Of a stretch of DNA of 45,792 nucleotides, positions 6,788-45,175 are shown in pieces. Both the position numbers and the translations under genes were made by a program. Source of the DNA: Thermoanaerobaculia bacterium (lineage in GTDB: Bacteria > Acidobacteriota > Thermoanaerobaculia > Multivoradales > JAGPDF01); contig JAIOJQ010000328.1 of NCBI GenBank assembly GCA_019911865.1, forward strand, positions 1-45,792. Reading direction: 5' to 3'. Positions within the stretch are counted from its first letter, which is position 1. Every line of letters starts with the position of its first letter. The notes under the pieces are model-generated. The model had not been told where the DNA came from and made no database searches. It worked only from the letters and a program-made list of their open reading frames with translations.

Positions 6788-8340
<1,553 letters not shown>

Positions 8341-8376
8341 CTCAGCTCTCCCGTTCCCGGCGCGACCGCGAAATCA

Positions 8377-11994: not shown

Positions 11995-12055
11995 GGTCTG
12001 GTCCGATTCCTCTTCCGGATTGATCGCGCGGCAGGGACGTGGGCGTCCGCGCCGG

Positions 12056-15196: not shown

Positions 15197-16219
15197 TCAG
15201 GCGAGCGCTCCCGAGCAGCTCGAGCCCGCGCCGGCGGTGCACGCGAAGCAGTGGCTCGCCGTGGCGATCGCGCTGCCGCCGAGATCCGAGAGCCGATCGA
15301 CGTCCCAGACCGTCGGACGAGAGGGTCCGCCTTCGAGGCGGAGCGGCAGGTCGAGCATCAGGTTGAAGTCGCAGTCGTAAAGCCGTCCCCGCCAGTCGAC
15401 GCTGACCTGCGAGCGGCACATCAGCCCCTCGACGGTCGCCGGGTTGAAGTGGTTGACCAGCAGCGCCTGGTAGTCCTCGGTCTTGCCCAGCCGCGCGAGC
15501 TGCTCGGCGAAGCGGCGGATCGGCATGTTGGTGAGGGTCAGCAGTCTATCGAACTCGATGCCGAAGCGCTCCGCGAGCTCGCGCTTGTAGTCCTCCTCGA
15601 GCTGGCGCTGCGCGGGCGGCAGCGACGGCCCGAGCGGGTTGTATACGAGGTCGAGACGCAGCGCCGAGCCGGCACGGCCGTAGCCGAGCTGGTTCAGTCG
15701 ACGCAGCGCCGCGATCGAGCCGTCGAAGGTGCCGCGTCCCCGCTGGCGGTCGACGTTGCTCTCCGTGTAGCAGGGCAGGCTGGCGACGATCTCGACGCGC
15801 TGGGCGGCGAGAAACTCCGCCAGTCCCTCGAAGCCGGTCTCGCCGAGGATGGTCAGGTTGCAGCGGTCGATGACCCGGCGGCCCAGCTGCCGCGCTCCGG
15901 TGACCAGCCGCTCGAACTGCGGGTTCATCTCGGGCGCGCCGCCGGTCAGGTCGAGCACCTCGACTCCGGGGCTGGCGGCGAGCAGCTCGAGCAGCCGGTC
16001 TGCGACCTCCGCGGAAAGCGACTCGGTCCGCTTCGGCCCGGCCTCGACGTGGCAGTGGTGGCAGGCGAGGTTGCAGAGCCGGCCGACGTTGACCTGCAGG
16101 GTCGTGATCCGGGCGCGCCGCAGCGCGCCGAGGCCGTGCCGCTGCAAGGTCGCGTCGAAGCGAGCGTCGTCGGCGGCGGTGGGCAGGACGGGAAGTCGAG
16201 GGGCGCGATCGGCGAGCAT
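15197..16219 (-). CDS. arsS: arsenosugar biosynthesis radical SAM protein ArsS
   Basis: NVGRLCNLACHHCHVEAGPKRTES (CxxxCxxC), LTGGAPEMNPQF, C-terminal CFACTAGAGSSCSGALA. Confidence 0.92.
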   Translation of the reverse strand: MLADRAPRLPVLPTAADDARFDATLQRHGLGALRRARITTLQVNVGRLCNLACHHCHVEAGPKRTESLSAEVADRLLELLAASPGVEVLDLTGGAPEMNPQFERLVTGARQLGRRVIDRCNLTILGETGFEGLAEFLAAQRVEIVASLPCYTESNVDRQRGRGTFDGSIAALRRLNQLGYGRAGSALRLDLVYNPLGPSLPPAQRQLEEDYKRELAERFGIEFDRLLTLTNMPIRRFAEQLARLGKTEDYQALLVNHFNPATVEGLMCRSQVSVDWRGRLYDCDFNLMLDLPLRLEGGPSRPTVWDVDRLSDLGGSAIATASHCFACTAGAGSSCSGALA

Positions 16220-28661: not shown

Positions 28662-29103
28662 CCCCTCTCTCGTTGCGAGCCCACTCTCTCACTCCTCCGG
28701 CTCCCGTGTCCCGTGGCGGTGCGAGGCATGCGCCTCCTCCAGGCACCGGTCTTCGCTCGGCGCGCGGTCCGTGGCGCCGCCTCCAGGCCGGCCGGGTCGC
28801 TGGCGGTGCTGCGGAGCCGCTCCAGCGGCGATTCGCCGCGACCTTCCCGCCTTATTCTGTCGACGAAACTCCGGTGCCGCCACGACGCGTCCACGCGGGC
28901 TCCGGACCACCCCGGGAAGCGGGTGCTGCGAACGGGCCCGGCAGGTATCCTGACCGGCGGGAGGAGCGCCTTCTTGAATCGACACCCCCTCCGCTTCCGG
29001 ACTCTTGCCGCTGCGACCGTCGAAGCGACCCGGGCCGCCTTCGAGTCCAGGATCGGCTCGCTCCACCGCGACGGCTGAGCGGCGGCCGACCTCGAAAACC
29101 CCG

Positions 29104-30159
29104 ATGGCTCGACTCGCCCCTCTGTTCGCGATCGTGACGGCACTCGCGCTGCCGGGCGCCTCCGCGCGGGCCTTCCACGGCGGCGGCGTCGCGGCCTGCG
29201 GCGGCTGTCACGTCACCCACAACAGCGCGGACGGCTTGCCGATCGTGCCGGGGCCGGCCAACGACTACGCGCTGCGTTCGACGACGCCGAGCGAGGTCTG
29301 CCTGCTCTGCCACGCACAGTCGGCCGGCATGGTGCTCGGCCTCAACCCGCTCGCGCCGCCACCCGAACGGGGCGGCGGCAACTTCGTCTTCCTGCTCGAG
29401 GAGAACCTGAACGACGCGGCCGACGGCGCGACGCGCCCCATCCCGGGTGCGGCGGCGGGACACAACCTGGTCGCCCCCGCGTACGGCCTGACGGCGGACA
29501 CGCGCCACGGCGTCTCGCCCGGCGGCAGCTTCCCGGCCACCGAGATGGGTTGTACGAGCTGCCACGATCCGCACGGCCGCACGAGCTTCCGGATGCTCTG
29601 GGGCGCCGGCACGATCCGCGACGGGCTCTTCGTCTTCGGCGCGCCGGCGCCGGTCGCCAGCGGGCTGCCGCTGACCGCAGGTGCCGTCGAGCGGCGCGGC
29701 GCCCACTCCGCCTACGTCTCGGGCATGAGCGCCTGGTGCGGCAACTGCCACGGCGATTACCACCGCACCGTCGGCACGGAGAACTTCGAGCATCCGAACG
29801 ACGCCATGCTCTCGATCGCCGTCGTCGACCAGTACAACCGCTACCAGGGCGTACTCAATCCGACGGGCGGCAACCCGCTCGACGCCTACCTGCCCGAGGT
29901 GCCGTTCGAGGACGTCTCCACCGCGGTCGAGTCGACCGCGGGCCCGAGCGCGACGAGCCGCCTCTCCTGTCTCTCCTGTCATCGCGCCCATGCGAGCTCG
30001 GCGCCCGCGGCGCTCCGGTGGGACTTCGCGATCGCGACTCTGGGCGAGGACGGCGCCGTCTCGGGCTCGTGGCCGATCCCGAATCCGTACGGCGACCCGT
30101 CGCAACCCGGGCTGTGCTGGAAGTGCCACGCCGGCGGCGCCCCGCCTCCGACGCCCTGA
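29104..30159 (+). CDS. hexaheme c-type cytochrome, OmcS-like (paralogue 1)
   Basis: Signal peptide ending ARAFHGGGVAACGGCHVTHNS; six CxxCH (CGGCH, CLLCH, CTSCH, CGNCH, CLSCH, CWKCH); GHNLVAPAYG, CTSCHDPHG, MSAWCGNCHGDYH, LPEVPFED, CLSCHRAHAS. Confidence 0.9.
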   Translation: MARLAPLFAIVTALALPGASARAFHGGGVAACGGCHVTHNSADGLPIVPGPANDYALRSTTPSEVCLLCHAQSAGMVLGLNPLAPPPERGGGNFVFLLEENLNDAADGATRPIPGAAAGHNLVAPAYGLTADTRHGVSPGGSFPATEMGCTSCHDPHGRTSFRMLWGAGTIRDGLFVFGAPAPVASGLPLTAGAVERRGAHSAYVSGMSAWCGNCHGDYHRTVGTENFEHPNDAMLSIAVVDQYNRYQGVLNPTGGNPLDAYLPEVPFEDVSTAVESTAGPSATSRLSCLSCHRAHASSAPAALRWDFAIATLGEDGAVSGSWPIPNPYGDPSQPGLCWKCHAGGAPPPTP

Positions 30160-30183: not shown

Positions 30184-33100
30184 GTGACCCGACCCGAAAC
30201 GAGCTCGCACGCCTCCGCGCCGCCGCTGCGGCGGCGCGCCACGTTTCGCCTCGTCGCGCTGATCTTCGTGCTCTCCGGCGCGGCGGCGCTCGTCTACCAG
30301 GTCGTCTGGACGCGCGCTCTCGGCCTCGTCTTCGGCAGCTCGCACCTCGCGGTGACGACCGTTCTCGCGGTCTTCATGGGCGGCCTCGCGCTCGGCGGCG
30401 CACTCTTCGGTCGCCGGGTAGGCAGCGAGCGCCGGCTGCTCCGGCTCTACGGCCGGCTCGAGCTCGGCATCGCCGCCGCCGCGCTCGGCTTCGCCCTGCT
30501 CGTGCGTGCCTATCCGCTCCTCTATGTCCCGCTCGCGCGCCTGGGCGAGAGCTCGCCCCTCTACCTCTCGATCCTGCGCGTCGGCTTCGCCGCCCTTCTG
30601 CTCCTGGTTCCCACGACGCTCATGGGCGGCACGCTGCCGGTCCTCGCGGCCTTCGTCGGCGGGCGCGGTCGGGAATTCGCGGCAAGGCTCTCGTTGCTGT
30701 ACGCGCTCAACACCTTCGGAGCGGTGCTCGGGGCCGGCGCGGCCGGATTCGTGCTCCTCCGCTTCTTCTCGGTCTCCACCAGCCTCGGCGTGGCGATCGG
30801 CATCAACGTCCTGCTCGGCTTCGCCTGCCTCGCGCTCGACCGGCGGTTGCCGTCCGCCGCCTCGCCGGAGCCCGAAGCCGCCACGCCCCCGGCGCCGGCG
30901 AGCCCCGTCGGCTCGCCGCGGCCCATTTCGGATCCTCTCCCTGGCCGCCTCGTGCTCTTCGGCGCCGGCGTCTGCGGCTTCGCCGCGCTCGGCTACGAGG
31001 TGCTCTGGACGCGCGTGCTCGGCATGGTGATCGGGGCGAGCGTTTACGGCTTCACCGTGATGCTGATGGCCTTCCTGACCGGCATCGCCCTCGGCAGCTC
31101 GGCCTACGGAGCCTGGAACCGCAAGCGGTCGGCACGAGTCGACCGCGGGCCCGATGCGGCGGTCCGCACCTTCGCGATCGTGCAGGTCGCCATCGGCGCC
31201 GCCGGTCTCGCGGTGACCGGCGCCTTGCGGGAGCTGCCGTCGCACGCCTACCAGCTCCAATGGTCGCTCCTCGGCGGACCCGCCCACGGCTTCGCGACCC
31301 GCCAGGCGATCGATTTCCTGCTCGCCTTTCTCTACGTGCTCGTACCGGCCTTTCTCTCGGGGCTCGCCTTCCCGCTCGCGGCGCGCATTCGCGCCGAGCG
31401 CGGTGGCGAGCCGGCCTGCGCGGTCGGCGAGACTCTCGCCGTGAATACCGTCGGCGCGATCGCGGGGGCGGCAGCGAGCGGCTACGTGCTGGTCCACCTG
31501 GTCGGCATCGAGCGCTCGCTCCAGCTCCTGTCGCTCGCTGTCGCGGGCTGCGGACTGGTCGTCGCGGCCAGCCTGCGCGGCCCCCGCCTCGCCGTCGCCG
31601 CCGCGGCGGCGATCGGTGTCGCCGCCCTCCTGCTCGCCTCCGCCGGCGACGCGCTGCGCTCCTGGGACCGGCGCTTCTTCGCCGTCTACCAGTCGAACCG
31701 GCCCGACAAGTTCTCGACCCCCGAGAAGACGCGCGACACCCTGCGCAACACCGACGTGCTCCACTACGCCGAGGGGGTGCAGGCGATAGTCAGCTCGATC
31801 AAGGTCAAGGGCGGCACCCAGTCGTTCATCACCAACGGCCGGATCGAGGCGACGGACAACCCGCCGGACCTCGCCTGCCAGTACACGCTCGGGCACCTGC
31901 CGATGCTCCTGCACCCCGAGCCGCGGAAGGTCTTCGTGCTCGGCACCGGCAGCGGCATGACGCTCGGCGCGACCGCCGCTCATCCCTCGGTCGAGCGCGT
32001 CACCCTCGCCGAGATCGAACCCGCCGTGCTCGGCGTCGCGCGCACTTTCGCCCGCTACAACCACGATGTTCTCGAGGATCCCCGTCTGCGCGTCGTGCTC
32101 AACGACGGCCGCAACTTCCTGCTCACGACGCGCGAGCGTTTCGATGTCATCACCGCCGACCCCATCCATCCCTGGTTCAGCGGCGCCGGCTACCTCTACA
32201 CGAAGGAGTATTTCGACCTCGCGTCATCACGGCTCGCGCCCGGCGGCGTGATGTGCCAGTGGCTGCCGATCTACGAGCTGGATGCCGCGAATCTGCGCTC
32301 CATCGTTCGCACCTTCCTGTCGAGCTTCGAGCACGTGCTCGTATGGCTCACCCACTACGACGCGCAGCTCGTCGGCAGCAATGCGGCCTTCCGGATCGAC
32401 GAGCGAGAGCTCGACCGCCGCATCGCCCAGCCGGCCGTTCGCGGCGACCTCGACCGCATCCAGATGGGCTCGGCCCGCGACCTGCTCGCCTTCTTCGCCT
32501 TCGGCCGGCCCGGGGCCGAGGCTTACTCGGCTGGCGCCCGCCTGAATACCGACGACAATCTCTATCTCGAGTTTTCCGCCCCGCTGTCCATGGAGGAGCC
32601 GGCGCTCATCGCCGAGAACTTCGCCGGCCTGGTCGCCCATCGGGAGAGCCTGCTGCCCTACCTCGCGCCCGCCGACGGGGAGGAGCGGAGCCGGCAGGAG
32701 GCGCGCGCGTCGGCGGCACTGACCGCCGCCCGCATCGCCGATCCGATCCGTCACCGTGAACTGGCCGGGGAGATCGGCCCGACGGAGGCCGCGCGACTCG
32801 CCGCCGAACTCGGCCCCGCCCTGGGGGACTACGGACCCTGGCGCTACCTGCTCGGCGAGTTCGCGCGCGACCGGGCCCAGGCGCCGCAGCTTCTCCGCCA
32901 GGTTTTCCTGCCAGCGGTCAAGCCCGGGGGCGCCGTGGAGCCGATCCGGCTCGGCGCGATAGCCCGGCGGATGACCGGGGTGATCACGACGCTCGACTTC
33001 GTCGACGGCCGCGACGGTCGCGTGCTGGCGCACCACGAGATCCTGGGAGGACCCGAAGGCGCGGCCGGCGAGCTCGTCGAAGCCGCGTTCCGGGACGTCC

Positions 33101-33243
33101 GGGAGGCCTACGCCGCCGAGCGCCGCGCGGCGAGCGCGCGCGGCGAGAGCGCGCCGGCCGAGGCCAGGCTCCTCGAGCGCCTCGCCGCGGTCCTCGGCAG
33201 CCGCCTCGCCCGGACGGACGACACCGGCCTTCCCGTTCGCTGA
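30184..33243 (+). CDS. fused polytopic membrane domain + spermidine synthase-like (aminopropyltransferase) protein
   Basis: GTG start; N-terminal TM domain (LSGAAALVYQVVWTRALGLVFGSSHLAVTTVLAVFMGGLALGGALFGRR); SpeE-like domain (LGHLPMLLHPEPRKVFVLGTGSGMTLGATAAHPSVERVTLAEIEPAV…YTKEYFDLASSRLAPGGVMCQWLPIYEL). Confidence 0.9.
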   Translation: MTRPETSSHASAPPLRRRATFRLVALIFVLSGAAALVYQVVWTRALGLVFGSSHLAVTTVLAVFMGGLALGGALFGRRVGSERRLLRLYGRLELGIAAAALGFALLVRAYPLLYVPLARLGESSPLYLSILRVGFAALLLLVPTTLMGGTLPVLAAFVGGRGREFAARLSLLYALNTFGAVLGAGAAGFVLLRFFSVSTSLGVAIGINVLLGFACLALDRRLPSAASPEPEAATPPAPASPVGSPRPISDPLPGRLVLFGAGVCGFAALGYEVLWTRVLGMVIGASVYGFTVMLMAFLTGIALGSSAYGAWNRKRSARVDRGPDAAVRTFAIVQVAIGAAGLAVTGALRELPSHAYQLQWSLLGGPAHGFATRQAIDFLLAFLYVLVPAFLSGLAFPLAARIRAERGGEPACAVGETLAVNTVGAIAGAAASGYVLVHLVGIERSLQLLSLAVAGCGLVVAASLRGPRLAVAAAAAIGVAALLLASAGDALRSWDRRFFAVYQSNRPDKFSTPEKTRDTLRNTDVLHYAEGVQAIVSSIKVKGGTQSFITNGRIEATDNPPDLACQYTLGHLPMLLHPEPRKVFVLGTGSGMTLGATAAHPSVERVTLAEIEPAVLGVARTFARYNHDVLEDPRLRVVLNDGRNFLLTTRERFDVITADPIHPWFSGAGYLYTKEYFDLASSRLAPGGVMCQWLPIYELDAANLRSIVRTFLSSFEHVLVWLTHYDAQLVGSNAAFRIDERELDRRIAQPAVRGDLDRIQMGSARDLLAFFAFGRPGAEAYSAGARLNTDDNLYLEFSAPLSMEEPALIAENFAGLVAHRESLLPYLAPADGEERSRQEARASAALTAARIADPIRHRELAGEIGPTEAARLAAELGPALGDYGPWRYLLGEFARDRAQAPQLLRQVFLPAVKPGGAVEPIRLGAIARRMTGVITTLDFVDGRDGRVLAHHEILGGPEGAAGELVEAAFRDVREAYAAERRAASARGESAPAEARLLERLAAVLGSRLARTDDTGLPVR

Positions 33244-33256
33244 AGCGACGGCGTGC

Positions 33257-34219
33257 TCAGCGGGGCGGCGCCGGCGCGGCGCCGAGGCCGCCGTAGACCT
33301 GGACGCGGCCATCGGCCGATTGCGCCACGTAGGCGCGGCCCGCGGGGTCGAGCGCGAGGTCGTAGGGGAAGTAGAGCCAGCCCGGGGCGTCGCCCAATCC
33401 GAGGTGTTCCGACAGGCATTCGTTGTCCGCGATCCGCCAGCGCGTCACCATCATGCGCTGGGCGTCGAGCACGACCACGTGCCCTTCGGTATCCAGCGCG
33501 GCAGCGGTGGGATAGCCGAGGTGGAGCGGGCCCGAGCCGCGCACACCGACGCCGCCGACCCGCGCGCCCTCGAGCGTGTAGACGAGCACCCGTCCGCGCA
33601 GCGGGATCGTGACCACGACGCGGTCGCCCGAGACGTCGACGTGGCCGGGCGCCCATTCGGACCGCTCGTCCTCGGGATCCTCGGCGCCGAGGTCGATGCC
33701 GCCGAGGACGTGGCCGTCGCGGTCGGCGATCCAGACCTTCGAGTTGGCGCCGTCGGCGAGGAAGATCCGATCGCCGTCGAGCGACAGCGCGACCGAGCCG
33801 AGCGCGGGCGGCACGCTCCCCTCCGGCAGGTCGACGATCGGCACCTCGCGCCGGAAGCGACCGTCGAAGTCGATCTCGACGAGCGCCAGCCCCGGACCGC
33901 GGCGCGCGAGGACGAGGAGAAAGCCTTCGGGGTCGACCGCGAGATCCTCGGGCGACGCGAGCTCCTCGCCGCCCAGGATCTGCGCCTCGAACTGGCCCTC
34001 GCGGTCGAAGATCAGGATCCGGCTCGTCCGCGGGTCGCAGACGAAAACCTCGCCGGTGTGGGGATCCGCCGTCACGCAGTTGCCGTAAGCGATGTCGTCG
34101 CCGGCGACCGGCAGGCTCAAGCGCCCGAGGTAGCGCACCTCGGCCGCCGAAACCGTGGCGGGCGACGCCAACACGACGAGGAGCGCCGCGAGAGTGCGGA
34201 GCAGGACCCGGCCGGTCAA
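33257..34219 (-). CDS. NHL-repeat/beta-propeller protein with signal peptide (OscD-like candidate)
   Basis: Signal MTGRVLLRTLAALLVVLASPATVSAAE; repeated beta-propeller blades (PEDLAVDPEGFLLVLARR, YDLALDPAGRAYVAQSADGRVQVY). Confidence 0.85.
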   Translation of the reverse strand: MTGRVLLRTLAALLVVLASPATVSAAEVRYLGRLSLPVAGDDIAYGNCVTADPHTGEVFVCDPRTSRILIFDREGQFEAQILGGEELASPEDLAVDPEGFLLVLARRGPGLALVEIDFDGRFRREVPIVDLPEGSVPPALGSVALSLDGDRIFLADGANSKVWIADRDGHVLGGIDLGAEDPEDERSEWAPGHVDVSGDRVVVTIPLRGRVLVYTLEGARVGGVGVRGSGPLHLGYPTAAALDTEGHVVVLDAQRMMVTRWRIADNECLSEHLGLGDAPGWLYFPYDLALDPAGRAYVAQSADGRVQVYGGLGAAPAPPR

Positions 34220-35133
34220 CGGCCACTTCCGATCACGTCGAAGAGCTGGGCGCGACCGTTGCCGCCGTCGGAGACCAGCAGGGCACCGTTGGGCAGGCGC
34301 GCGAGCGCGTCCGGGAAGTAGAGCTGGCCCGGCTCCCAGCCTTTGCCGCCGCCGAGGCCGAGCAGCTGGCCCTCGCCGTCGAGGACGACGACCCGGTGCT
34401 GATGGCGGTCGAGGACGAAGAGGCGACCGCCGGGCTCGGCCACGATCCCCGCGGGCCAGAGCGGCACCGGGCTCTCCGAGGGCACCCGCATCCGCCCTGC
34501 GGGTCGGCCCTCCGCGTCGAAGCGCTCGAGCGCGCCGCGCTCGCCGATGCCGACCCAGAAGCCGCCGGCGCCGTCGCTCGCGAGCGCGGTGACGTTGCCC
34601 GCGATCGCGGCCCGAGCGACGACGGACGACCCCTGGAGCTTGGCGACCCGCCCGCGGCGCGCGTCCCAGACCAGCAGGCCGCCGTCCGAGGACTCCGCGA
34701 TGCGGCCGGCGACGATGCCGTCCGGCAGCGCCAGCTTGCGCGGCTCCTCCGCCGATGCGCCGCCGCGCACCGCCAGGAGCTCGGAGCCGGCGCCGCGCAG
34801 CACGGCGAGATACTCCCCGCCCACGAACGCCAGCGCGGCGGGCGGCGCCGGCAGGGCGACCTCGCGGCGCAGCGGCCAGCCGGATCCGACCCGGTGGAGA
34901 ATCAGCAGACGGTTGCCGTGCGCGTCGGCGACCGCGATCTCGTCGGCGCCGCCCACTGCCACCGCGACCGGCCAGCGCAGCGGGCGCTCGGCCGGTCCGT
35001 CGACCACCGCGGCGTAGCGCAGCAGGCGCTGGGCGAGCTGCTGGGTGAGGGCGGGCGCGGCGATCGCGACGACGAGCGCGAGCGCGATGGCGAGCGGGCG
35101 GCCGCCGCGCCGGGCGAGGCTTCGGGCGGGCAT
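34216..35133 (-). CDS. NHL-repeat/beta-propeller protein, second copy
   Basis: MPARSLARRGGRPLAIALALVVAIAAPALTQQ…; blades such as PAGIVAEPGGRLFVLDRHQHRVVVLDGEGQLL; start at 35131-35133; overlaps both neighbours. Confidence 0.85.
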   Translation of the reverse strand: MPARSLARRGGRPLAIALALVVAIAAPALTQQLAQRLLRYAAVVDGPAERPLRWPVAVAVGGADEIAVADAHGNRLLILHRVGSGWPLRREVALPAPPAALAFVGGEYLAVLRGAGSELLAVRGGASAEEPRKLALPDGIVAGRIAESSDGGLLVWDARRGRVAKLQGSSVVARAAIAGNVTALASDGAGGFWVGIGERGALERFDAEGRPAGRMRVPSESPVPLWPAGIVAEPGGRLFVLDRHQHRVVVLDGEGQLLGLGGGKGWEPGQLYFPDALARLPNGALLVSDGGNGRAQLFDVIGSGR

Positions 35134-36404
35134 CACTGGTTCCTCCTCGCCATCGATTTGTGGCAACTGACGCAGAGATCGGTCACCTCCCCGGCGTGGA
35201 GGTACTTGGGGTAGGGCGCCTCGTGGATCGCGTGACAGGAGCCGCAGTCCATCGGCGCTCCCGAGCGCGGATCGAGCTTGTCCTCGCCGAGGGGATGGCT
35301 GACCCCGTGCTGGTGGGAGTGGCAACTGCTGCAGACCGCGACCGGATCGTCGACGAACAGGCGCGGCTGCCCGGCGCCGTGCGGCGCGTGGCAGGTGGTG
35401 CACGAGACCTGCCCCGCGTGCAGGGCGAAGCGCCCGGGCTGCCGGGAGGCGGCGCCGCCCGGATCGTGACAAGCGAGGCAGGTCGCCTCCTCCTTGCGCT
35501 GGAGGATCGCCGCGCCCTCCCCCGCGTGCGGGTTGTGGCAGTCGGTGCAGCGCCCGCCCGCCGCCGAGACGTGGCCGAAGCGCGCCTGGCGCGACTCCTC
35601 GACCTGGTCGGCGTGGCAGTCGCCGCACAGCTCGTCCTCGGGCTTGACCAGGGCGAAAGGGCGCTCCGCGGAGCTCGCGACGTGACAGGTCGAGCACGTG
35701 CCGCTGCCGAACGGCTCGTGGACGATCTGCCGGAGCAGTCCGGGCCGATCCGAGGCGTGCGGATCGTGGCAGGTCGCGCATTCGGCCTTCTCGACCGGGT
35801 AGCCGCCGTGAATCGACCGGAAGCGGGCGTCGACGGCGTGGCAGCTCGTGCACGAGGCGCCCGGCTTGATCAGCCCCGGCGTGTCGCTGGCGTGCGCCTC
35901 GTGACAGGTCGCGCACCGGCCTTGCGCGAACGGCGCGTGCGGGGACTTGCGCTGCTGCCACTCCGCGACGTCGACGTGGCACTCCTGGCAGAGCTCGGTC
36001 GCCGGCCGCGCGAGGAGGCCGGCGAAGGGGGCACCGTGCGCGGAGTGACAGATGGCGCAGCGCGCCTCCGCGACCGGCGCATGGACCACCTTGCGCGCCA
36101 GCTGGGCGGTAACGTCTTCGTGGCAGCGCGCGCACAGCGGCCCGGGCTGATCGAGGAGCAGGCCCTCGAGGCGGGAGACGTGGGGGTTGTGGCACGCGGA
36201 GCAGTCGCCCTCCGCGGCGGGCGGATGCTTCACCTTCGCCGCCAGCGCGTCCGCCAGGTCGTGGCACTCGAGGCAGACCTTGAGCTCGTCGACCTCGGCC
36301 GCCTGCGGCGCCCCGGCGGCGAACGCCGCCGTTCCGATCATTGCGAGCGCCGGAGCTCCGAGCAGCGCGAGCGTCGCGAGCGCGATCCGGATCGGAGCGT
36401 TCAT
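35133..36404 (-). CDS. 16-heme c-type cytochrome (cytochrome c3/c7 or NrfB-type CxxCH repeats)
   Basis: 16 CxxCH motifs counted in 423 aa from MNAPIRIALATLALLGAPALA. Confidence 0.92.
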   Translation of the reverse strand: MNAPIRIALATLALLGAPALAMIGTAAFAAGAPQAAEVDELKVCLECHDLADALAAKVKHPPAAEGDCSACHNPHVSRLEGLLLDQPGPLCARCHEDVTAQLARKVVHAPVAEARCAICHSAHGAPFAGLLARPATELCQECHVDVAEWQQRKSPHAPFAQGRCATCHEAHASDTPGLIKPGASCTSCHAVDARFRSIHGGYPVEKAECATCHDPHASDRPGLLRQIVHEPFGSGTCSTCHVASSAERPFALVKPEDELCGDCHADQVEESRQARFGHVSAAGGRCTDCHNPHAGEGAAILQRKEEATCLACHDPGGAASRQPGRFALHAGQVSCTTCHAPHGAGQPRLFVDDPVAVCSSCHSHQHGVSHPLGEDKLDPRSGAPMDCGSCHAIHEAPYPKYLHAGEVTDLCVSCHKSMARRNQ

Positions 36405-38332
36405 CGTGCACCTCCCGCGGCCGCCCCGTCGGTATGGCAGGTGTCGCACGCCCTCTCCGCGAACGGCGGGTGGGCGACCGGCAGCAGCAGACCCCCCTCC
36501 TTCGCGGCGTGCGGATCGTGGCAGCTGCCGCAATCGAGCGTCTTCGCCGGCAACCCGAGGTGCGCCGCGGCGAAGTCCCTGCCGTCGCCGGGATGACAGC
36601 TCAGGCAGCCTTCGGCGACCGGCTGCCGGAGCAGCGAGGGCTGCGGCGCGACGTGCGGCGAGTGGCAGTCGATGCACCCCTCCGGCTCGGCGGCCGGCGG
36701 GTGCGCCACCTGCTGGTCGATCGCCTGCTCGACCGCCGTGTGGCACGAGCCGCAGAGCGGCCGCACCGGCGCGCGCAGGAACGCCCGCGTGGCGCTGGCG
36801 TGCGGCTGGTGGCAGGCGGTGCACGAGCGACCCGCGCCCTCGTGGGTGGAGCCGCCGACCGGCGCCTCGACCTTGACGTCGTGGCACTCGGCGCACAGCC
36901 GCGCGGTCGGCGCGGTGAGCAGCGCCGGCACCGCGGCCGCGTGCGGCAGGTGGCAGCTCGCGCAGTCGCCGTCGGCGAAGGGCGGGTGCTGCGGCAGGCC
37001 GTCCGCCGCCCGCATCTCAACCTCGTGGCAGGTCGCGCAGAGCTCCTTGCCCTGGGCGACCAGCAGGTTCGCGCCGCCCGCGTGGGGCTCGTGGCACGAC
37101 GAGCAGGCGCCGGTGGCGACCGGCTGGTGGACGACCGGCAGACCCGAGCGGGTGCCGATCTCGCCGTGGCAGTTGCCGCACAGCGCGTCCTGGTCGCGGA
37201 CCAGTATCGCCTTGCGCCCGGTGCCGTGCGGATCGTGACACTCCGAGCACTCGCCGCGCGACGGCTCGTGGACGACGGCGGCCCCGGCTCCGACCGGGTC
37301 CTCGTGGCAGCTCACGCAGAGCGCGCGCGGCTCCTCGCGCAGCAGCCCCGCGACCTGGCTCTGGTGGCCGGCGTGACACGCCGTGCAGTCGCTCGCGGCC
37401 GGGTGGGGCGCCGGCAACGCCATCGCCTTCGCCACGTCGCCGTGGCAGCTCGTGCAGAGCTCGGCGGGCGCCGCGCGGAGCAGCGCGGGGTGGTCCGTCG
37501 TGTGCGCGTCGTGGCACGCGAGGCAGTCGCCGCGCAGCACCGGCCCGTGCACCGAGGGCGCCGAGCCGGCTTCGACCGCGGCGTGGCAGTCGAGACAGAC
37601 CCGCGCGCCACCGGCCGGCTTGCCGGACCCTCCTTCGTGGCAGCTCGTGCAGTCCATCTCCGGGTGGATCGCGACGCCGAGCAGCCCCGCGCGCGCGCCG
37701 CTGTGCGGCCGGTGGCAGCTCGCGCAGTCGGTGCCGGCGACCGCCATCCCCGCGTGCGCGCCAGCCCAGCCGTCCGCGCTCGCGTGGCAGCCCGCGCAGA
37801 GCGCGTCGCCCGCCTGGAGCAGCTGCTTCGGGTGCGCGCTGCCGTGGGGCGAGTGGCACGACGAGCAGCCCTCGGCGGCCGGCGGGTGCGGCACCTCGCC
37901 GTCGAGCCCGGCGGCGGCGTGACAGCCGGCGCAGAGCTCGCGCTCGGGCAGGACGAGCAGCGCCTTCTGGTTCGAGCCGTGCGGATCGTGGCAGGACGAA
38001 CACTGCTCGACCCCGGGGTGCCGGTGCTCGGCCTTCGTCCCGAGCTTCGACACGTCGTGGCAGGACAGGCAGAGAGCCGGCTCGTTCTCGGTCAGGCGCA
38101 GAGCACCGACCAGCCCGTGCGGCTTGTGGCAGGAGTCGCAGCCCTCGGCGAGCGGCGCGTGCGGCACCCGGACGTCCTTGCCGACGTCGGAGTGGCAGGA
38201 GGTGCAGGTGGAGCCCTGCTCGAAGCGGCCGCCGCGCTTGAGCTGCGCGTCGGCGCGTGGCGCGAGAGCGAGCCCGCCGAGGCCGGCGAGAGCTGCCGCG
38301 AGCGCGAGAGCCCGGATCGGTTGGGTGGTCAT
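36401..38332 (-). CDS. 26-heme c-type cytochrome
   Basis: 26 CxxCH motifs counted in 643 aa; signal peptide MTTQPIRALALAAALAGLGGLALAPRADA. Confidence 0.93.
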   Translation of the reverse strand: MTTQPIRALALAAALAGLGGLALAPRADAQLKRGGRFEQGSTCTSCHSDVGKDVRVPHAPLAEGCDSCHKPHGLVGALRLTENEPALCLSCHDVSKLGTKAEHRHPGVEQCSSCHDPHGSNQKALLVLPERELCAGCHAAAGLDGEVPHPPAAEGCSSCHSPHGSAHPKQLLQAGDALCAGCHASADGWAGAHAGMAVAGTDCASCHRPHSGARAGLLGVAIHPEMDCTSCHEGGSGKPAGGARVCLDCHAAVEAGSAPSVHGPVLRGDCLACHDAHTTDHPALLRAAPAELCTSCHGDVAKAMALPAPHPAASDCTACHAGHQSQVAGLLREEPRALCVSCHEDPVGAGAAVVHEPSRGECSECHDPHGTGRKAILVRDQDALCGNCHGEIGTRSGLPVVHQPVATGACSSCHEPHAGGANLLVAQGKELCATCHEVEMRAADGLPQHPPFADGDCASCHLPHAAAVPALLTAPTARLCAECHDVKVEAPVGGSTHEGAGRSCTACHQPHASATRAFLRAPVRPLCGSCHTAVEQAIDQQVAHPPAAEPEGCIDCHSPHVAPQPSLLRQPVAEGCLSCHPGDGRDFAAAHLGLPAKTLDCGSCHDPHAAKEGGLLLPVAHPPFAERACDTCHTDGAAAGGAR

Positions 38333-38351
38333 GAGATCGACGTCCAGAGCC

Positions 38352-40085
38352 TCAGCCGCCGTGACCGGGAACCGCCGGCGCCTCCTCCGGCGCCGTCGGC
38401 AGGATCTCGAAGCGGGCGAGAGCCGCCTGGTCGATCCAGATCTCGGAGCGCTCGCGGAGCTTGGCGATCACCTCGTCGATCCGCGCCACGACCTCCTGGT
38501 TCTCGAGCTTCGCCTTGACGTTGCCCGAGACGGCCTCGAACGGATAGTGGTCCTGCTCCTCGTAGACGTCGACCTGGAGGAGCACCCAGCCGTTCGGGCT
38601 CTCCCTGGGGCCGAGAATGTCGCCCTTGCGCGCGTCGAGGAGATCCTCGCGGAAATTGAGCAGGCCCTCGGTCGCCAGCACCCAGCCGCGGTCGCCGCCG
38701 GCCTCCTTGTAGGAGTCGGTCGAGTTCTGGCGGACGAGCCAGGCGAACTCCGCGCCGCCCTTTGCCAGGCCGGCCAGCCGCTCGGCCTGCTCGCGGGTCG
38801 GCACCGTGAGCTGGAGCAGGTGCAATCGCGGCGGCTTGCGGAACTCGTCGCGGTGCTCGTCGTAGTAGGCACGCGCCTCGGCCGGAGTCACCTCGACCCC
38901 GGCGGCGACCGTCTCCTTGAGGTACTTCGAGGCGAGATGGCTGAGCTCGAGCGCATGCAGCTCGCGCCTCACCTTCGGCGTGTCGCCATAGCCGCGGCGC
39001 AGGCCCTCGGCGATCAGCATCTCCTCGAAGATCAGCTCGTCGAGAACGCCCGGCTTGTATTCGGCGGCGAGCACCGGGTTGGTGACTCCCGACCAGGCCG
39101 TGCCGAGCCGGCCGGCAAGCTCCTTGATGGTCAGCGTGCGGCCGGCGAGCCGCGCCACGGCGCGCTCGGGATCGGCGAACCTGGGCAGCAGCTTGCCGTC
39201 GTGCATGCGCTGAACCTCGATCGACTCGTAGGCCGCCCAGTCGACCTCCAGGCCGAGCGACGGCTCGAGCCGCTCGACGAGCGCCTTGCGGAGCGCGAGC
39301 TCCTGCCGGTGGCGGAGCTCGACCAGGACCCGGCGGGTCCGCTCGGCGAACTTTTCGGGATCGGCCGGCTCGACCTTCACCAGCCGGGCGAGGGTCCAGC
39401 CCCATGGCGTCGCGAGCGGCGCCGAGAGCGCGCCGGGCTCGCTCGTCTTGGCGAACTCGAGCAAGGACTGGTGGAGGTCGGTGAAGGCCGTGTTCATTCG
39501 GCCGCCGCGCCCGGCGTAGGGATCCTGGGAGTCGGTCCCGGCCAGCTCCGCCCAGGCCTCCTCGCCGGCCGGTTCGAGCTTCGCTCGCAGCGCCTCGAGC
39601 TCGGCCCGGTCGCGCCGGGTGAGGATCCGGAGCGTCGCGAACCGGTAGACGTCCGCGTAGACTTCGCGCGCCTTCGGCTCGGAGAAATCGAGCCGCGCCA
39701 GGATCTCCTCGCGGAAGACCTCGCCACGCGCCTTCGACTCGCGGCGCGCCACGAGCTTGCGCGCGAGCTGCGGATCCGCGTCCATCTCGAGTGTCCGCGC
39801 CTCCTGGGCGAGGAGGGTGTCGTTGACCAGGCGGAACATCAGCTGCTCGAGGTCGAAGCGTGACCGCTGCCGAACCTGCTGGGAGCGGTGGATCTCCTCG
39901 AGGACGATCTCGATGTCCTCGCTGTAGAGCGCTTCGCCGTTGACGCGGGCAACGACGGTCGAGCCGGCGTCGGGGGGATCGAGCTCCTGCCCGACGCCCG
40001 GCAGCGGCGCGGCGAGCAAGGCGAGGGCAGAGAGCCAGCGGACGGGTCGCGCCGCACGGCGCGCCCGCGGTGGTGAAGTGCGCAT
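38352..40085 (-). CDS. secreted PpiC-type (parvulin) peptidyl-prolyl cis-trans isomerase (OscH-like candidate)
   Basis: Signal …LALLAAPLPGVGQ; VNGEALYSEDIEIVLEEI (SurA-N-like); two parvulin-like regions (RILTRRDRAELEALRAKLEPAGEEAWAELAGTDSQDPYAGRGGRMN…; LHLLQLTVPTREQAERLAGLAKGGAEFAWLVRQNSTD…GDRGWV). Confidence 0.9.
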   Translation of the reverse strand: MRTSPPRARRAARPVRWLSALALLAAPLPGVGQELDPPDAGSTVVARVNGEALYSEDIEIVLEEIHRSQQVRQRSRFDLEQLMFRLVNDTLLAQEARTLEMDADPQLARKLVARRESKARGEVFREEILARLDFSEPKAREVYADVYRFATLRILTRRDRAELEALRAKLEPAGEEAWAELAGTDSQDPYAGRGGRMNTAFTDLHQSLLEFAKTSEPGALSAPLATPWGWTLARLVKVEPADPEKFAERTRRVLVELRHRQELALRKALVERLEPSLGLEVDWAAYESIEVQRMHDGKLLPRFADPERAVARLAGRTLTIKELAGRLGTAWSGVTNPVLAAEYKPGVLDELIFEEMLIAEGLRRGYGDTPKVRRELHALELSHLASKYLKETVAAGVEVTPAEARAYYDEHRDEFRKPPRLHLLQLTVPTREQAERLAGLAKGGAEFAWLVRQNSTDSYKEAGGDRGWVLATEGLLNFREDLLDARKGDILGPRESPNGWVLLQVDVYEEQDHYPFEAVSGNVKAKLENQEVVARIDEVIAKLRERSEIWIDQAALARFEILPTAPEEAPAVPGHGG

Positions 40086-41146
40086 CAACCGGACTCCTTC
40101 ATGACCACTGCGGCCTCCCCGCCAGAACCGGCGAGGAGCATACGCGTGGCGATTCGTTCGAGCAGATTCCGCAGCTGCGCGCCGCGCGAGTGGACGCGGC
40201 CGCGACCGAACCACCCCTCTCGGTCGAAGCCGCCACCTTCGAGCGAGCCGACGAAGAGGATGCGGCCCGACTCGGCGTCGAGCAGCCGTACCGCCACCGC
40301 GACCACCGGCTCGGGCGAGCTGCCGCCGCGAACTTCCCAGCGCTCGACCGAACCGGTGACCAGCCGGGCGGCGCCGCAGGCGTCGCGCACCTCGGCGCGG
40401 ACCTCCGCCGAGAGCTCGCCCCATCGGATGCCGCCCGGGCCGCGCAGCGCCGTCGTCACGCAGCCCGGCTCGGCGAGCGGGATCCCGGCGGCGACGAGCA
40501 GCGCGCGCATCGTCTCGGTCGCCGCCGCCGCGACCTCGAGCCCGTCCGCCACCTCGTTGACGGTGAAGGGCACGATGCCGACGAGGTCGGGCGGCGCGGC
40601 GACCCCGACTCCCGGGCTCGCCGGCGCGACCGCGCCGAGCTCGACGCCCGCCAGCAGCTCGGTGACCACCGGCGGCAGCAGGGTCGCGAGGTCGGCGACC
40701 GCGCCGATCCCCAGCAGGCCGCGCGTGTCCAGCCCGGAGCGGGCGACCGCGGCGGCCCACGCCATGCGGCCCGTCCGCCCGTCGTAGAGCCGGGCCGAAA
40801 CCGTGAGATCGGGAACCAGATGCTCGGGCGCGTCGTGGATCGCCACCGAGATCAGCCAGTCGGCCCCGAGCGCCGCCGCGATCGCGCGCAACCGCTCGGG
40901 CGGCGCGCCGTCGGCGTTGCGCAGGCGCTCGGCGCGCAGCGCGGCCCGGGTCCGCTCGGCGTCGATCACGGTCGCCCTCCGGGCGAGCTCGGCAGTCACC
41001 GCCTGCTCGAACCGCGCGCCGAGTCCCTCGACCCGCACGCCCTGCCGCACGGGCAGCAGCGCGACCGTGTCGGCCAGCGCTGCGCGGCCGGCCAGGGCGC
41101 CGGCGGCGAGCAGGAGCGGAGCGAGGAGGGAGCGGCGGCGCATCAC
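40085..41146 (-). CDS. CsgG-like/curli-assembly-type periplasmic protein
   Basis: Signal peptide; VALLPVRQGVRVEGLGARFEQAVTAELARRATVIDAERTRAAL…ALGADWLISVAI…SARLYDGRTGRMAWAAAV. Confidence 0.65.
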   Translation of the reverse strand: MMRRRSLLAPLLLAAGALAGRAALADTVALLPVRQGVRVEGLGARFEQAVTAELARRATVIDAERTRAALRAERLRNADGAPPERLRAIAAALGADWLISVAIHDAPEHLVPDLTVSARLYDGRTGRMAWAAAVARSGLDTRGLLGIGAVADLATLLPPVVTELLAGVELGAVAPASPGVGVAAPPDLVGIVPFTVNEVADGLEVAAAATETMRALLVAAGIPLAEPGCVTTALRGPGGIRWGELSAEVRAEVRDACGAARLVTGSVERWEVRGGSSPEPVVAVAVRLLDAESGRILFVGSLEGGGFDREGWFGRGRVHSRGAQLRNLLERIATRMLLAGSGGEAAVVMKESG

Positions 41147-41149
41147 GGG

Positions 41150-41782
41150 CTACTTGAGCAGCGTCTCCACGAGCCGTCGCACGCAGCGTCGCGTCGTCAC
41201 CGAGAGCGGTTCGCCCTCGTTGCCGAGCAGGCGCGCCGAGGCGACCGAGCCCTTCTCGGTGTGCGTCGCCGCCCAGATGATGGCGCCCGACTCGGTCTCG
41301 ACCAGCTGGGCGTCGACGGTCACCGTCGGGACGCCGGCCGAGCCCGAGCGCAGCACCTCGGACTGCAGGACGGCGCCCGCGATGACCGCCTGGACACCGA
41401 GCGTCTTGCCGAGTTCGACGATCTGTTCGGTGCTCGGACGCTGGGCCCGGTTGGCGCCAAATTTGACCGTGGCGGCGTTCACCTCGCCGGGCTCGACGAC
41501 GTCGACCGCGCCGGTCGCGAGCAGCTCGGTGACCAGCAGTCGGGTCACGCGCGCGGCCGCGGCGGTGTCGTTCGAGTAGTTCTCGAACGGCAGCACGGCC
41601 ACCCTCTCGACGAACGAGAAGTCGATCTTCGGGTTGGTGAACTTCGTCGGCCCCATCGACCCGCAGCCGCTGAGGGCCCCGAGGCAGGCGACGAGGAGGG
41701 CGAGGCATCGGGTCGAGCTTCGGAGTTTTCTCACGGTTCGCACCTTCCGATCAGAAGGAGAGGGTGGTGCCTGCGTTGACAC
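41150..41782 (-). CDS. CsgG-like lipoprotein
   Basis: Lipobox-like LGALSGCGSM; VERVAVLPFENYSNDTAAAARVTRLLVTELLATGAVDVVEPGEVNAA…QAVIAGAVLQ…VTVDAQLVETESGAIIWAATHTEKG. Confidence 0.8.
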   Translation of the reverse strand: MSTQAPPSPSDRKVRTVRKLRSSTRCLALLVACLGALSGCGSMGPTKFTNPKIDFSFVERVAVLPFENYSNDTAAAARVTRLLVTELLATGAVDVVEPGEVNAATVKFGANRAQRPSTEQIVELGKTLGVQAVIAGAVLQSEVLRSGSAGVPTVTVDAQLVETESGAIIWAATHTEKGSVASARLLGNEGEPLSVTTRRCVRRLVETLLK

Positions 41783-43901
41783 TGGTCACGGCGGTCTCCG
41801 GGCCGTCCGCGATCGCCGAGCTCGAGCGCGTCATGGAGCCGAAGAGCACCAGTCGGGCCGCGAGCCGGTAGTGCAGGGCGAGGCTCTCGTTGCGGGTTTG
41901 CGCGCCTTCGCGCTGGGAGAAGTCGTCCCAGCCGAGCGCGAGGCTCAACTTCGGTCCCGGGTTCCACGACAGATTGTAGCTCTGCCGAATCGTGGCGCCG
42001 GTCGACTCGTCGAAATAGGCGATCGTGCCGCCGAGGCCGAGCGCGGCGCCGGGTGTCCAGCCGAAATCGACGAACAGGCTGGAGCTCTCGAAGCGCGGCC
42101 CGCCGGCGACGGCGCTCTCCGTGCGGCTCCAGGTGTAGCCCCCGCCCAGGCGCCAGTCCTGGCGCGGGCGCATGTCGATCCGCTCCGTCCAGGTGAGCGT
42201 CTCGCGCGCCCCGCCGGTCCCCGGGGTCTCGATCCGGCTGGTCGACAGGTTGGTCACGAGACGCAGCTCGTCGAGCAGGTCGAGGGCGATCGTCGCGCGC
42301 GCGTAGCGGAGGTTCGACAGCTCGTGCCGCTCGTCGGAGTCGGTCCGCACCCCGGTCGCGAGCAACGCGTCGACGGTGTCGAGTGGATTCCAGCGCAGGC
42401 TCGCTCCGAAGTCGTCGGAGATCCGGGTCAGGTCGCGTCCGGCGCCCTCCTCGTAGCGCGAGTGCCGGTAGGCGACCGAGAGCGTCAGGTCGCGCGCGAG
42501 GTCGAGGCCGAGTCCGCCGTTGATCGCCGAACCGGTGGTGTCCCGCCGCACCACGCCGCCCACCGTCGTCGAGTCGTTGCTCGCGTCGGCCGAGGCGTGG
42601 AAGTGGAGTCGCTCCGAGACCCGCCACGCCAGGCTCGCGGCCGCCCGGTAGAGGTCGGCGCTGCGCTCGGGCTGGAGCGCCTCGACCGCGACGTCGCGCA
42701 GGGCGACGAGCTCGGTGACGCGGACCTCGTTCTCCGGGTTGATCGAGACGTTGACGGCCTTCAGATAACGCTCGGAGGACTCCAGGAAGTGGAGCTGATA
42801 GCGGAGCAGATCGGGGTCCCAGGCGCGCTCGAGGATCGTCACCGGCTGCCAGACCAGGCCGTCCGCGCTCTGGTAGACGTCCCAGGCGACCTGGGCGCCC
42901 GAGAGGCGGTCGACGACGATGTCGAGCCGGTGCGCCGGCACCGGCAAACCGAGGTCGAGGGCGAGGTTGCGGAAGGTGTTGGCGCCGCCGATTTCGATCG
43001 CCGGCGCGACCGGCGTCGAGAGGTCGCCGTCGACGAGGCCGGGCGCCGCGTCGAGTTCGCCGAGGGCGGGCGAGAGGTCGACGCCGGCGAAACCGCGCAC
43101 CGCCGCGATCGGCTCCGCGAGCTCGCCCTCGCCGCGGCTCTGCTCGGCTTCGAGCCGGCCGGCGACGCCCGCGAAGGAGAGGCGGACGCGATCGCCCGCC
43201 AGCGCGCGCGCCGCGGTGAGCCGCAGGTCGTGACGCAGCTGGGTGACGTCGAGGGCGGCCGCGCCGCCGGTGAGCTCGTTGTACCTGCCGCCGTACCCGA
43301 CGCTCCAGCGCGGGCGCTCGAACAGCAGGTCGACGCGCCCGACCCGCTGCTCGAGCCCGCGGCCGAGTGCCGCCACGCTCGCCGACTCGTCGGCGAGGTC
43401 GCGCCAGGAGAGGCCGAGGCGGAAGCCGCGCGGCGCGCGCCAGGAGAGGCTGGTGGTGAGCGCGCGCGACTCGAACTCCGCCGCGTCCGCGCCGGTGTCG
43501 GACCGCAGGCTCTCCCAGGCGACGCGCCACGACAGGTTCGGCGCGCCGTAGCGCAGCTCGGCCACCGGCTGCACGGTGGTGCGCGAGAAGGCCTCGACGC
43601 CGTCGAGCTGCGCGGCCTGCTCGGCGTAGAGGCCCGAGAGGTGCAGGCTCAGGTAGGGCGTGAGCTCCTGGACGACCGCGACGTTGGCGGAGTGATCGCT
43701 GCCGTCGACCACGGCGTCGCCGAGATCGGTGCTCGTCCAGCCGAGCCGGAGGGCGCCGTCGAGCGTGCCGGCGCGTGCCGCCGAGGCCGCCGCCAGAGCG
43801 AGCCCCGCCAGAACGAGGCTGCGCCCGGCACCCTCCCGCGAAACCTGCGACGCGCGTCTCACGGCGGGCATTCTCACAGCCAGCTCGAACGCCGCCACCA
43901 T
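41751..43901 (-). CDS. outer-membrane beta-barrel protein (OscG-like candidate), start possibly 43871
   Basis: 716 aa; signal peptide; repeated alternating amphipathic strands; terminates in …SVNAGTTLSF with a C-terminal Phe. Confidence 0.85.
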   Translation of the reverse strand: MVAAFELAVRMPAVRRASQVSREGAGRSLVLAGLALAAASAARAGTLDGALRLGWTSTDLGDAVVDGSDHSANVAVVQELTPYLSLHLSGLYAEQAAQLDGVEAFSRTTVQPVAELRYGAPNLSWRVAWESLRSDTGADAAEFESRALTTSLSWRAPRGFRLGLSWRDLADESASVAALGRGLEQRVGRVDLLFERPRWSVGYGGRYNELTGGAAALDVTQLRHDLRLTAARALAGDRVRLSFAGVAGRLEAEQSRGEGELAEPIAAVRGFAGVDLSPALGELDAAPGLVDGDLSTPVAPAIEIGGANTFRNLALDLGLPVPAHRLDIVVDRLSGAQVAWDVYQSADGLVWQPVTILERAWDPDLLRYQLHFLESSERYLKAVNVSINPENEVRVTELVALRDVAVEALQPERSADLYRAAASLAWRVSERLHFHASADASNDSTTVGGVVRRDTTGSAINGGLGLDLARDLTLSVAYRHSRYEEGAGRDLTRISDDFGASLRWNPLDTVDALLATGVRTDSDERHELSNLRYARATIALDLLDELRLVTNLSTSRIETPGTGGARETLTWTERIDMRPRQDWRLGGGYTWSRTESAVAGGPRFESSSLFVDFGWTPGAALGLGGTIAYFDESTGATIRQSYNLSWNPGPKLSLALGWDDFSQREGAQTRNESLALHYRLAARLVLFGSMTRSSSAIADGPETAVTSVNAGTTLSF

Positions 43902-43951: not shown

Positions 43952-43987
43952 AAAAAAAGCGACCCGGGGTGCGGACACCCCGGGTCG
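43952..43987 (-). terminator. intrinsic terminator downstream of the 44024..45175 cytochrome gene
   Basis: Minus strand: GACCCGGGGTG-TCCG-CACCCCGGGTC (perfect 11-bp stem, extendable by one C-G) then GC and TTTTTTT. Confidence 0.92.
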
Positions 43988-44023: not shown

Positions 44024-45175
44024 TCACGGCGTGACGAGGTGGTCGAACTCGTCCTGCGTGTGGCACTTGTTGCAGAGCGACTTCTGGTCGTCGTCCGCCG
44101 GCAGCGTCGCCTGGGCGTACGGGATCTTCCAGGAGCCCGAGGTCGCGCCGTCGGTCTCGATGTTCTGGATCGTGAAGTCCCAGCGGCCCATGTCCTGCGC
44201 CGAGGTGGCGTGGGCGCGGTGGCAGGTGACGCAGGCGACCATCGACGTGCCCGCGGTCGGACCGGCGGTCGAGGTGGTCGTGACCGAGGGATCCTCGAAC
44301 GGCGTGTCCGGCAGGTAGGCGTCGACCACGGTGCCGCTGCCGCAGGGATCGGTCGGGCCGGTCGGCGGGTTGTTGACGCAGTCGGCCGTGCCGCGATACT
44401 CGTTGTACTTGGCGACGATCGTCGCGGTCAGAGCCTCGCCCGACGGGTGGATCAGGTTGCCGGACGAAGCGTGGAAGTCGCCGTGGCAGGTGGAGCACCA
44501 CTCGCTGTAGCCCGAGTGGTAGGCGTTGTGGTTCGCCAGGCCCTCGATCGAGTTGTAGCTGATGCCCTCGGCCACCAGGGTGCCGCCGAACGTCACCTCG
44601 TCCCCGCCGACGTCGATCGTCTGGCCGGTCTGGTAGAGGAAGCGGAAGCTGTCCTGGCCGTGCGGGTCGTGGCAGCTCGTGCACTCGAGCTGGTTGTTCG
44701 CCAGCTCGGCCTGGCCGCCCGGGGGATAGAGCAGCGTGGTGTCCCAGTTGCTGCCCTTGATGCCGGAGCGCAGGTTGTGGCCGGCCCGCTGGCCCGGGAT
44801 CGGGTTGGTCGCGCCGCCGCGGCCGTCGTTGACGTTGTCCTCGAGCAGGAACACGAAGTTGCCGGCGCTGTAGTACTCCTGCAGCGTCGGATTCAGTGGA
44901 TCCGACTCGAACACGTTGTAGCTGGCGCTGTTGTTGCCGTGGCAGCGCAGGCAGGTGTCGGTCGCGTTCGGCAGCAGCAGCAGGTCGGTGTAGCCGAAGC
45001 CCGGCGCCAGGCCCGGCCCGGTGCCGGTGGCGTCGAGGTTCATGCCCAGGTTGTTGGCGCTGTTGTGCATGGTGTGACAGCCCTGGCAGTAGCCGACCGA
45101 CTCGTGGTGGAACGCCATCGCCGGGGCGGCGAGCAGCACCGCGACGGCGGCGATCAGAAGCATCCGGTTCTTCAT
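44024..45175 (-). CDS. hexaheme c-type cytochrome, OmcS-like (paralogue 2)
   Basis: Signal …LAAPAMAFHHESVGYCQGCHTMHNS; six CxxCH (CQGCH, CLRCH, CTSCH, CSTCH, CVTCH, CNKCH); GHNLRSG, CTSCHDPHG, YSEWCSTCHGDFH, YLPDTPFED, CVTCHRAHATS, SLCNKCHTQDE. Confidence 0.93.
   Translation of the reverse strand: MKNRMLLIAAVAVLLAAPAMAFHHESVGYCQGCHTMHNSANNLGMNLDATGTGPGLAPGFGYTDLLLLPNATDTCLRCHGNNSASYNVFESDPLNPTLQEYYSAGNFVFLLEDNVNDGRGGATNPIPGQRAGHNLRSGIKGSNWDTTLLYPPGGQAELANNQLECTSCHDPHGQDSFRFLYQTGQTIDVGGDEVTFGGTLVAEGISYNSIEGLANHNAYHSGYSEWCSTCHGDFHASSGNLIHPSGEALTATIVAKYNEYRGTADCVNNPPTGPTDPCGSGTVVDAYLPDTPFEDPSVTTTSTAGPTAGTSMVACVTCHRAHATSAQDMGRWDFTIQNIETDGATSGSWKIPYAQATLPADDDQKSLCNKCHTQDEFDHLVTP

Follow-up and report, generated by a model that had tools for sequence, protein, structure and literature searches.

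The 45,792 nucleotides analyzed here (the window) form a single 45.8-kb contig, JAIOJQ010000328.1, in the metagenome-assembled genome (MAG) of a Thermoanaerobaculia bacterium (3.76 Mb in 458 contigs, 92.6% complete, 6.2% contamination). Its minus strand carries a gene cluster of the kind known as osc, for omcS companion, in Geobacter sulfurreducens, together with a gene for a hexaheme cytochrome resembling OmcS. The original prediction described nine genes with mostly overlapping ends, and all nine were verified in that order and on that strand, with exactly 26 and 16 CxxCH motifs in the two large multiheme proteins. The overlap itself holds for the eight genes from the outer-membrane barrel to the last propeller, in which neighbors overlap or lie within ~20 bp of each other. 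The OmcS-like gene is set apart from the barrel gene by 122 bp containing a strong intrinsic-terminator-like hairpin, so that the overlapping run comprises eight genes, not nine. The cluster and a second OmcS-like gene are laid out as follows.

44024-45175, minus strand: omcS_B, OmcS-like hexaheme cytochrome (6 CxxCH; phmmer match to OmcS 6ef8, E = 1.2e-25; 12 His kept)
43960-43987, minus strand: intrinsic-terminator-like hairpin in the gap between omcS_B and the barrel gene (12-pair stem, then a T-run)
41751-43901, minus strand: OscE-like outer-membrane barrel (AlphaFold2 model, Foldseek, CBM32 profile, homology to Geobacteraceae and other loci)
41150-41782, minus strand: OscF-like lipoprotein of the PelC/LpoB/CsgG superfamily, PelC-sized (Pfam LpoB and CsgG; PelC structures; profiles)
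40085-41146, minus strand: OscG-like protein with two tandem PelC-fold domains (AlphaFold2 model, Foldseek, profile, N-terminus)
38352-40085, minus strand: OscH-like SurA/PpiC prolyl isomerase chaperone (Rotamase_2, E = 2.5e-27, and SurA_N_3)
36401-38332, minus strand: OscI-like 26-heme cytochrome, 643 residues (26 CxxCH; above the TIGR03508 cut-off)
35133-36404, minus strand: OscJ-like 16-heme cytochrome, 423 residues (16 CxxCH; Geobacter sp. AOG1 and H2geo have a 16-heme counterpart in this position)
34216-35133, minus strand: NHL beta-propeller corresponding to the gene that ends the block, at the GSU2493 position (NHL, E = 2.9e-13)
33257-34219, minus strand: NHL beta-propeller corresponding to one that precedes omcS in OscD-containing loci (NHL, E = 2.2e-13)
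29005-30159, plus strand: omcS_A, second OmcS-like hexaheme cytochrome, convergent to the operon (phmmer match to 6ef8, E = 4.3e-31; 12 His kept)

The hairpin, with omcS_B upstream of it, is likely an (attenuating) terminator, an arrangement in which omcS_B transcripts would probably be more abundant than those of the remaining operon genes.

Profiles built from the window's lineage and run against other osc loci detected a counterpart of every companion gene, in the same order, in loci of Geobacteraceae, Anaeromyxobacter, Rokubacteria, and others. In Geomobilimonas luticola, the matches were 3e-30 for the barrel, 3e-39 for OscF, 2e-34 for OscG, 1e-40 for PpiC, and 4e-146 for the 26-heme protein, and in Geobacter sp. 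AOG1 they were 6e-89 for the 16-heme protein and 3e-25 for the terminal propeller, encoded by the gene after it. Across the other osc loci, E values ranged from 1e-31 to 1e-45 for OscF and from 1e-29 to 1e-50 for PpiC/OscH; in named loci, the OscF and OscG profiles together spanned 1e-26 to 1e-45. The profile of the propeller at 33257-34219 matched propellers upstream of omcS at 1e-15 to 1e-25. The barrel profile had no match at threshold in a few loci, and single-linkage clustering joined the barrels of 57 loci. As for published names, PMC12977616 ties the eight-gene block GSU2500-GSU2493 to OmcS maturation and secretion and assigns 26 hemes to GSU2495, while PMC13194489 equates oscI with GSU2495 and oscJ with GSU2494 and relays, second hand, roles in folding for OscH, in secretion for OscE-G, and in morphology for OscD. 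OscD was equated with GSU2500 and OscE with GSU2499 by position, and OscF and OscG likewise. The window thus shares with the G. sulfurreducens cluster (GSU2504-GSU2493) an OmcS-like protein, a barrel, two PelC/CsgG-fold proteins, PpiC, 26- and 16-heme proteins, and a terminal propeller, in that order. It differs in lacking OscD, in having the upstream propeller at its 3' end, in an OscG without a lipobox, in its second, convergent omcS accompanied by a spermidine-synthase-like gene, and in proteins that form a separate clade.

The arrangement recurs. In 99 genomes related to the window's, a PpiC search uncovered the operon six times, complete or in part, within another family of the same order. 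Wherever contig ends do not truncate it, gene order is identical, the multihemes again have 26 and 16 hemes, and the propellers again stand at the 3' end; such exact repetition in several other genomes indicates that the arrangement in the window is not due to chance. An OmcS-seeded scan of named genomes yielded 74 loci, none of them from G. sulfurreducens, in Geobacteraceae, Anaeromyxobacter, Rokubacteria, Nitrospirae, Desulfobulbaceae, and others, with the osc block downstream of omcS in the same order. Both PelC/CsgG-fold genes are visible in 44 of the 74, and 41 of these also show PpiC. When the search was seeded with OscG instead, 18 of 396 genomes of the window's phylum were positive (4.5%). 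In 17 of them, the window's among these, both PelC/CsgG-fold genes are present, and no fewer than 15 of the 17 have a 20- to 26-heme protein or a hexaheme OmcS-family gene in that stretch as well; hence the linkage is not an artifact of the seed. Homology to osc parts and recurrent linkage to OmcS-like genes, the joint absence of which the original prediction had named as fatal to it, were accordingly both detected. Three loci, two of them rokubacterial (L137, L138, and L227), have the set in two convergent halves, omcS-OscD-barrel-OscF-OscG-PpiC facing the multiheme-propeller genes. In Anaeromyxobacter soli SG29, a 2049-residue open frame with 49 CxxCH motifs lies just 3' of an OmcS-like gene (L079:11427-17573).

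These surveys alter one part of the initial picture, in which two giant multihemes and the CsgG-like proteins had been added to the system. The multihemes, present in Geobacter loci and named in papers, and the CsgG-like pair, both genes of which occur in 44 of the 74 OmcS-seeded loci, are canonical osc parts. That an osc system gained them here is hardly tenable: the presence of the genes is all that speaks for such a history, whereas all four are standard elsewhere, Geobacter included, and these loci refute it.

Both OmcS-like proteins matched OmcS and no other protein in the PDB (6ef8/6nef), at E = 1.2e-25 for omcS_B and 4.3e-31 for omcS_A. In an alignment of 109 hexaheme sequences, the twelve heme-ligand histidines of OmcS, exactly two per heme, are near-invariant (>=96%), and both window proteins retain 12 of 12, including H16, which we take to be the ligand to the heme of the adjacent subunit in the OmcS filament. 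With the full set kept, filament formation by these proteins is plausible. Coordination of heme between subunits does exist in the OmcS filament, where it is described without a residue number (PMC12307469). Alternatively, the block might be an ancestral or alternative secretion system whose cargo is non-wire-forming hexaheme cytochromes of the OscC type, an idea put forward for those Geobacter genomes that have GSU2501 and lack omcS. The distance of the window proteins from OmcS (E of 1e-25 and 1e-31) would fit this idea, but their retention of all twelve ligands, with H16 as the presumed inter-subunit one, argues against it, and we consider it doubtful. Its other support is the occurrence of the block in genomes with only a GSU2501 homolog, according to PMC12977616.

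What sets the window apart is the absence of OscD. In loci that contain it, OscD is a YVTN-propeller lipoprotein of ~480 residues, in agreement with the 473 given in PMC13194489, and its gene follows the last omcS-like gene and precedes that of the barrel. Its profile was positive in 40 of 44 named core loci; in the remaining four, the position lies beyond the fetched stretch, so that OscD stood at the expected place in 40 of 40 loci where that place is visible. Neither the window, where this position amounts to the 122 bp between omcS_B and the barrel gene, nor the rest of the MAG gave a match, and among the 99 relatives a full-length OscD was detected only in G030, in an operon of the canonical type. 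The two window propellers were considered as OscD and rejected, their matches being the terminal and upstream NHL propellers, shorter than OscD.

In a FastTree phylogeny of concatenated OscF-OscG-OscH (65 loci, 1088 columns, midpoint root), the window groups with nine loci in which OscD was not found (L033-L036, L039, L229, L231, L232, and L234) in one clade with support of 1.0, and the canonical OscD-containing loci all fall on the other side of the tree. This placement suggests that OscD was probably lost in the window's clade, a direction that depends on the midpoint rooting. In the same clade, the NHL propeller that elsewhere lies upstream of omcS closes the operon, as seen in L033-L036, L231, and L234. 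Since a named osc component was looked for and not found, we file the locus as an osc-related variant rather than a plain member. A neighboring third, more divergent group (L037, L038, L228, L230, and L233) has a different gene order and hexaheme proteins weakly similar to OmcS (34-91 bits), and two of its members carry a weak OscD-like gene.

Structural models refine the reading of the secretion parts, in which "CsgG-like" proved right for the superfamily fold but not for the closest relative, which is PelC; PelC/LpoB/CsgG superfamily is therefore the preferred wording. The AlphaFold2 model of OscG (predicted local distance difference test score, pLDDT, 87) consists of two tandem PelC/LpoB/CsgG-type domains with strands of ordinary length and is devoid of the two long transmembrane beta-hairpins of the CsgG pore. 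In Foldseek it resembled PelC most, both that of the PelBC exporter and that of PelC dodecamers, with CsgG ranking lower, and the family profile matches PelC at E = 3e-12. Many canonical OscG proteins have a lipobox, unlike that of the window; a Pfam match of OscG to HCV_NS4a lies below the cut-off and is meaningless. OscF matches the PelC structures 5t10, 5t11, and 9h80 and is told apart from the CsgG channel by its PelC-like length and by sequence matches in which PelC comes first. Akin to the PelB-PelC exopolysaccharide exporter, PelC-fold lipoproteins here adjoin an outer-membrane barrel, but the barrel shows no match to PelB, the PelC domain occurs twice in OscG, and the cargo is presumably a cytochrome. 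With the curli channel the locus shares the superfamily fold of OscF and OscG, whereas OscF has the size of PelC, the pore hairpins are missing from the OscG model, and no other curli proteins are encoded among the operon genes. A literature search found no publication linking OmcS with CsgG.

The OscE model (pLDDT 86, predicted template modeling score 0.64) contains 11 long strands, a beta-sandwich at residues ~260-405 resembling CBM32 (profile match), and 17 further long strands; ~28 strands were counted in this predicted barrel. Its first Foldseek match is MtrB (6r2q_B, E = 1.9e-11, template modeling (TM) score 0.42, 9% identity), and a Pfam scan of the barrel returned no MtrB-type family. 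The first PDB sequence match of the 26-heme protein is 6r2q_A (E = 3.8e-17), a 333-residue chain of the Mtr complex that we take to be MtrA, although the molecule name in the record is odd; the protein also scores above the cut-off of the DmsE/MtrA-type model TIGR03508, yet has 26 hemes. Two independent comparisons, of the barrel and of the cytochrome, point to the same complex and suggest that OscE and OscI pair. Compared with Shewanella MtrABC, the window has the large barrel with MtrB as its nearest fold and a multiheme protein whose nearest solved sequence is the cytochrome chain, but 26 rather than 10 hemes, a CBM32-like insert, no MtrC, and no Pfam MtrB match.

These likenesses, and the shared operon of the multihemes in the window's clade, are also what would be expected if the locus encoded an electron conduit rather than an exporter, with OscE and the 26- and 16-heme proteins as an MtrAB-like unit, the OmcS-like protein acting at the surface as a terminal reductase or as a short wire, and the chaperone and PelC-like ring serving to assemble the conduit. 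We regard this as possible, though on balance unlikely: export accounts better for PelC/CsgG-type rings and a dedicated chaperone, Rokubacteria split the barrel-ring-chaperone genes from the multihemes, and published work assigns the homologous OscE-G to OmcS secretion (PMC13194489). Exporter and conduit are, moreover, compatible and not mutually exclusive models.

Collectively, we read the locus, with a probability of about 0.75, as an osc-type operon that is divergent yet complete (OscE-F-G-H-I-J and two propellers), comes with two OmcS-like wire subunits, falls in a clade without OscD, and probably serves to secrete and wire OmcS-like filaments. In the mechanism we propose, the OmcS-like protein would be exported via Sec and receive its hemes in the periplasm, where the OscH-like chaperone would hold or fold it. 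On its periplasmic side, the large OscE barrel would bear a ring of PelC-like OscF and OscG, and the cytochrome would pass through this assembly and polymerize outside. OscI and OscJ would relay electrons through periplasm and outer membrane up to the base of the wire, OscI possibly sitting in or under the barrel as MtrA does in MtrB, and wire morphology may be set otherwise in the absence of OscD. Several points weigh against this reading. The similarity of OscE to MtrB is confined to the fold, as the low TM score and identity and the lack of a Pfam MtrB family indicate. The equivalence to the G. sulfurreducens cluster draws on other Geobacteraceae and on second-hand gene names. Filament properties may differ without OscD. 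Finally, polymerization of the window's OmcS-like proteins is predicted from sequence, which, as PMC12977616 warns, does not separate wire-forming OmcS from its hexaheme relatives.

The operon faces a further candidate component, encoded 25 bp downstream of omcS_A, with related genes beside omcS-like or osc genes in other loci:

30184-33243, plus strand: fused membrane/spermidine-synthase-like protein (Spermine_synth, E = 3.5e-24)
L052:775-3933, L095:5759-8821, L136:10028-13267, and L220:7033-10071: spermidine-synthase-like gene beside omcS-like/osc genes

The protein belongs to a widespread family, but its closest relatives (45-53% identity, >900 bits), from Rokubacteria, Nitrospiraceae, Schekmanbacteria, and deltaproteobacterial genomes, were found only beside omcS/osc genes, in a sample that is biased because most of the genomes bearing them were selected for a gene already near omcS, G105 being one not so selected. 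The best matches in the window's own relatives have 37-39% identity. In L220 and L221, a related gene lies within the osc operon itself, between OscF and OscG, which, with the company of the closest relatives, supports a functional tie to osc. The gene may be an undescribed osc accessory, perhaps acquired by horizontal transfer. In the rokubacterial loci L137 and L138, a spermidine-synthase-like gene follows the multiheme-propeller half.

The respiratory nitrate and arsenic genes reported beside the cluster are present on the contig, namely narG/narH (6790-12159) and the gene for the arsenosugar radical-SAM protein ArsS (15200-16219). Elsewhere in the MAG, there are further multiheme open frames (L150:3788-10276 and L149:8208-9335): one of 1498 residues with 21 CxxCH and one of 664 residues with 11 on contig C236, and one with 10 CxxCH on contig C223. 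An RpoB fragment of the MAG shares 66% identity with a Rokubacteria genome and 56-63% (main segments) with most others, distances too large for this marker to assign a phylum. Misbinning of the contig from another organism is improbable: the MAG does have 6.2% contamination and genomes of the same genus lack this type of locus (G001 has a different one), but the tetranucleotide profile and GC content resemble those of other contigs in the MAG, and the origin of the contig has no bearing on the identity of the locus.

To the question of how nanowires made of cytochromes exit the cell and are linked to its respiratory chain, this locus adds an OscD-less osc subtype and an improved structural reading of the secretion parts. 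As a speculation with low odds of holding in full, the clade might represent a second, ancient, OscD-independent nanowire subtype whose PelC-type ring, seated on an MtrB-like barrel, exports the subunit and, together with the 26-heme protein, wires the filament to the periplasm, while the spermidine-synthase-like enzyme modifies the cell surface or the wire. The corrected parts list places the multihemes and CsgG-like proteins in the core of osc, and the resemblances to PelC, MtrB, and MtrA provide a concrete structural model of the exporter and its electrical connection. A natural subtype without OscD, the proposed controller of wire morphology, would offer a direct test of that role.

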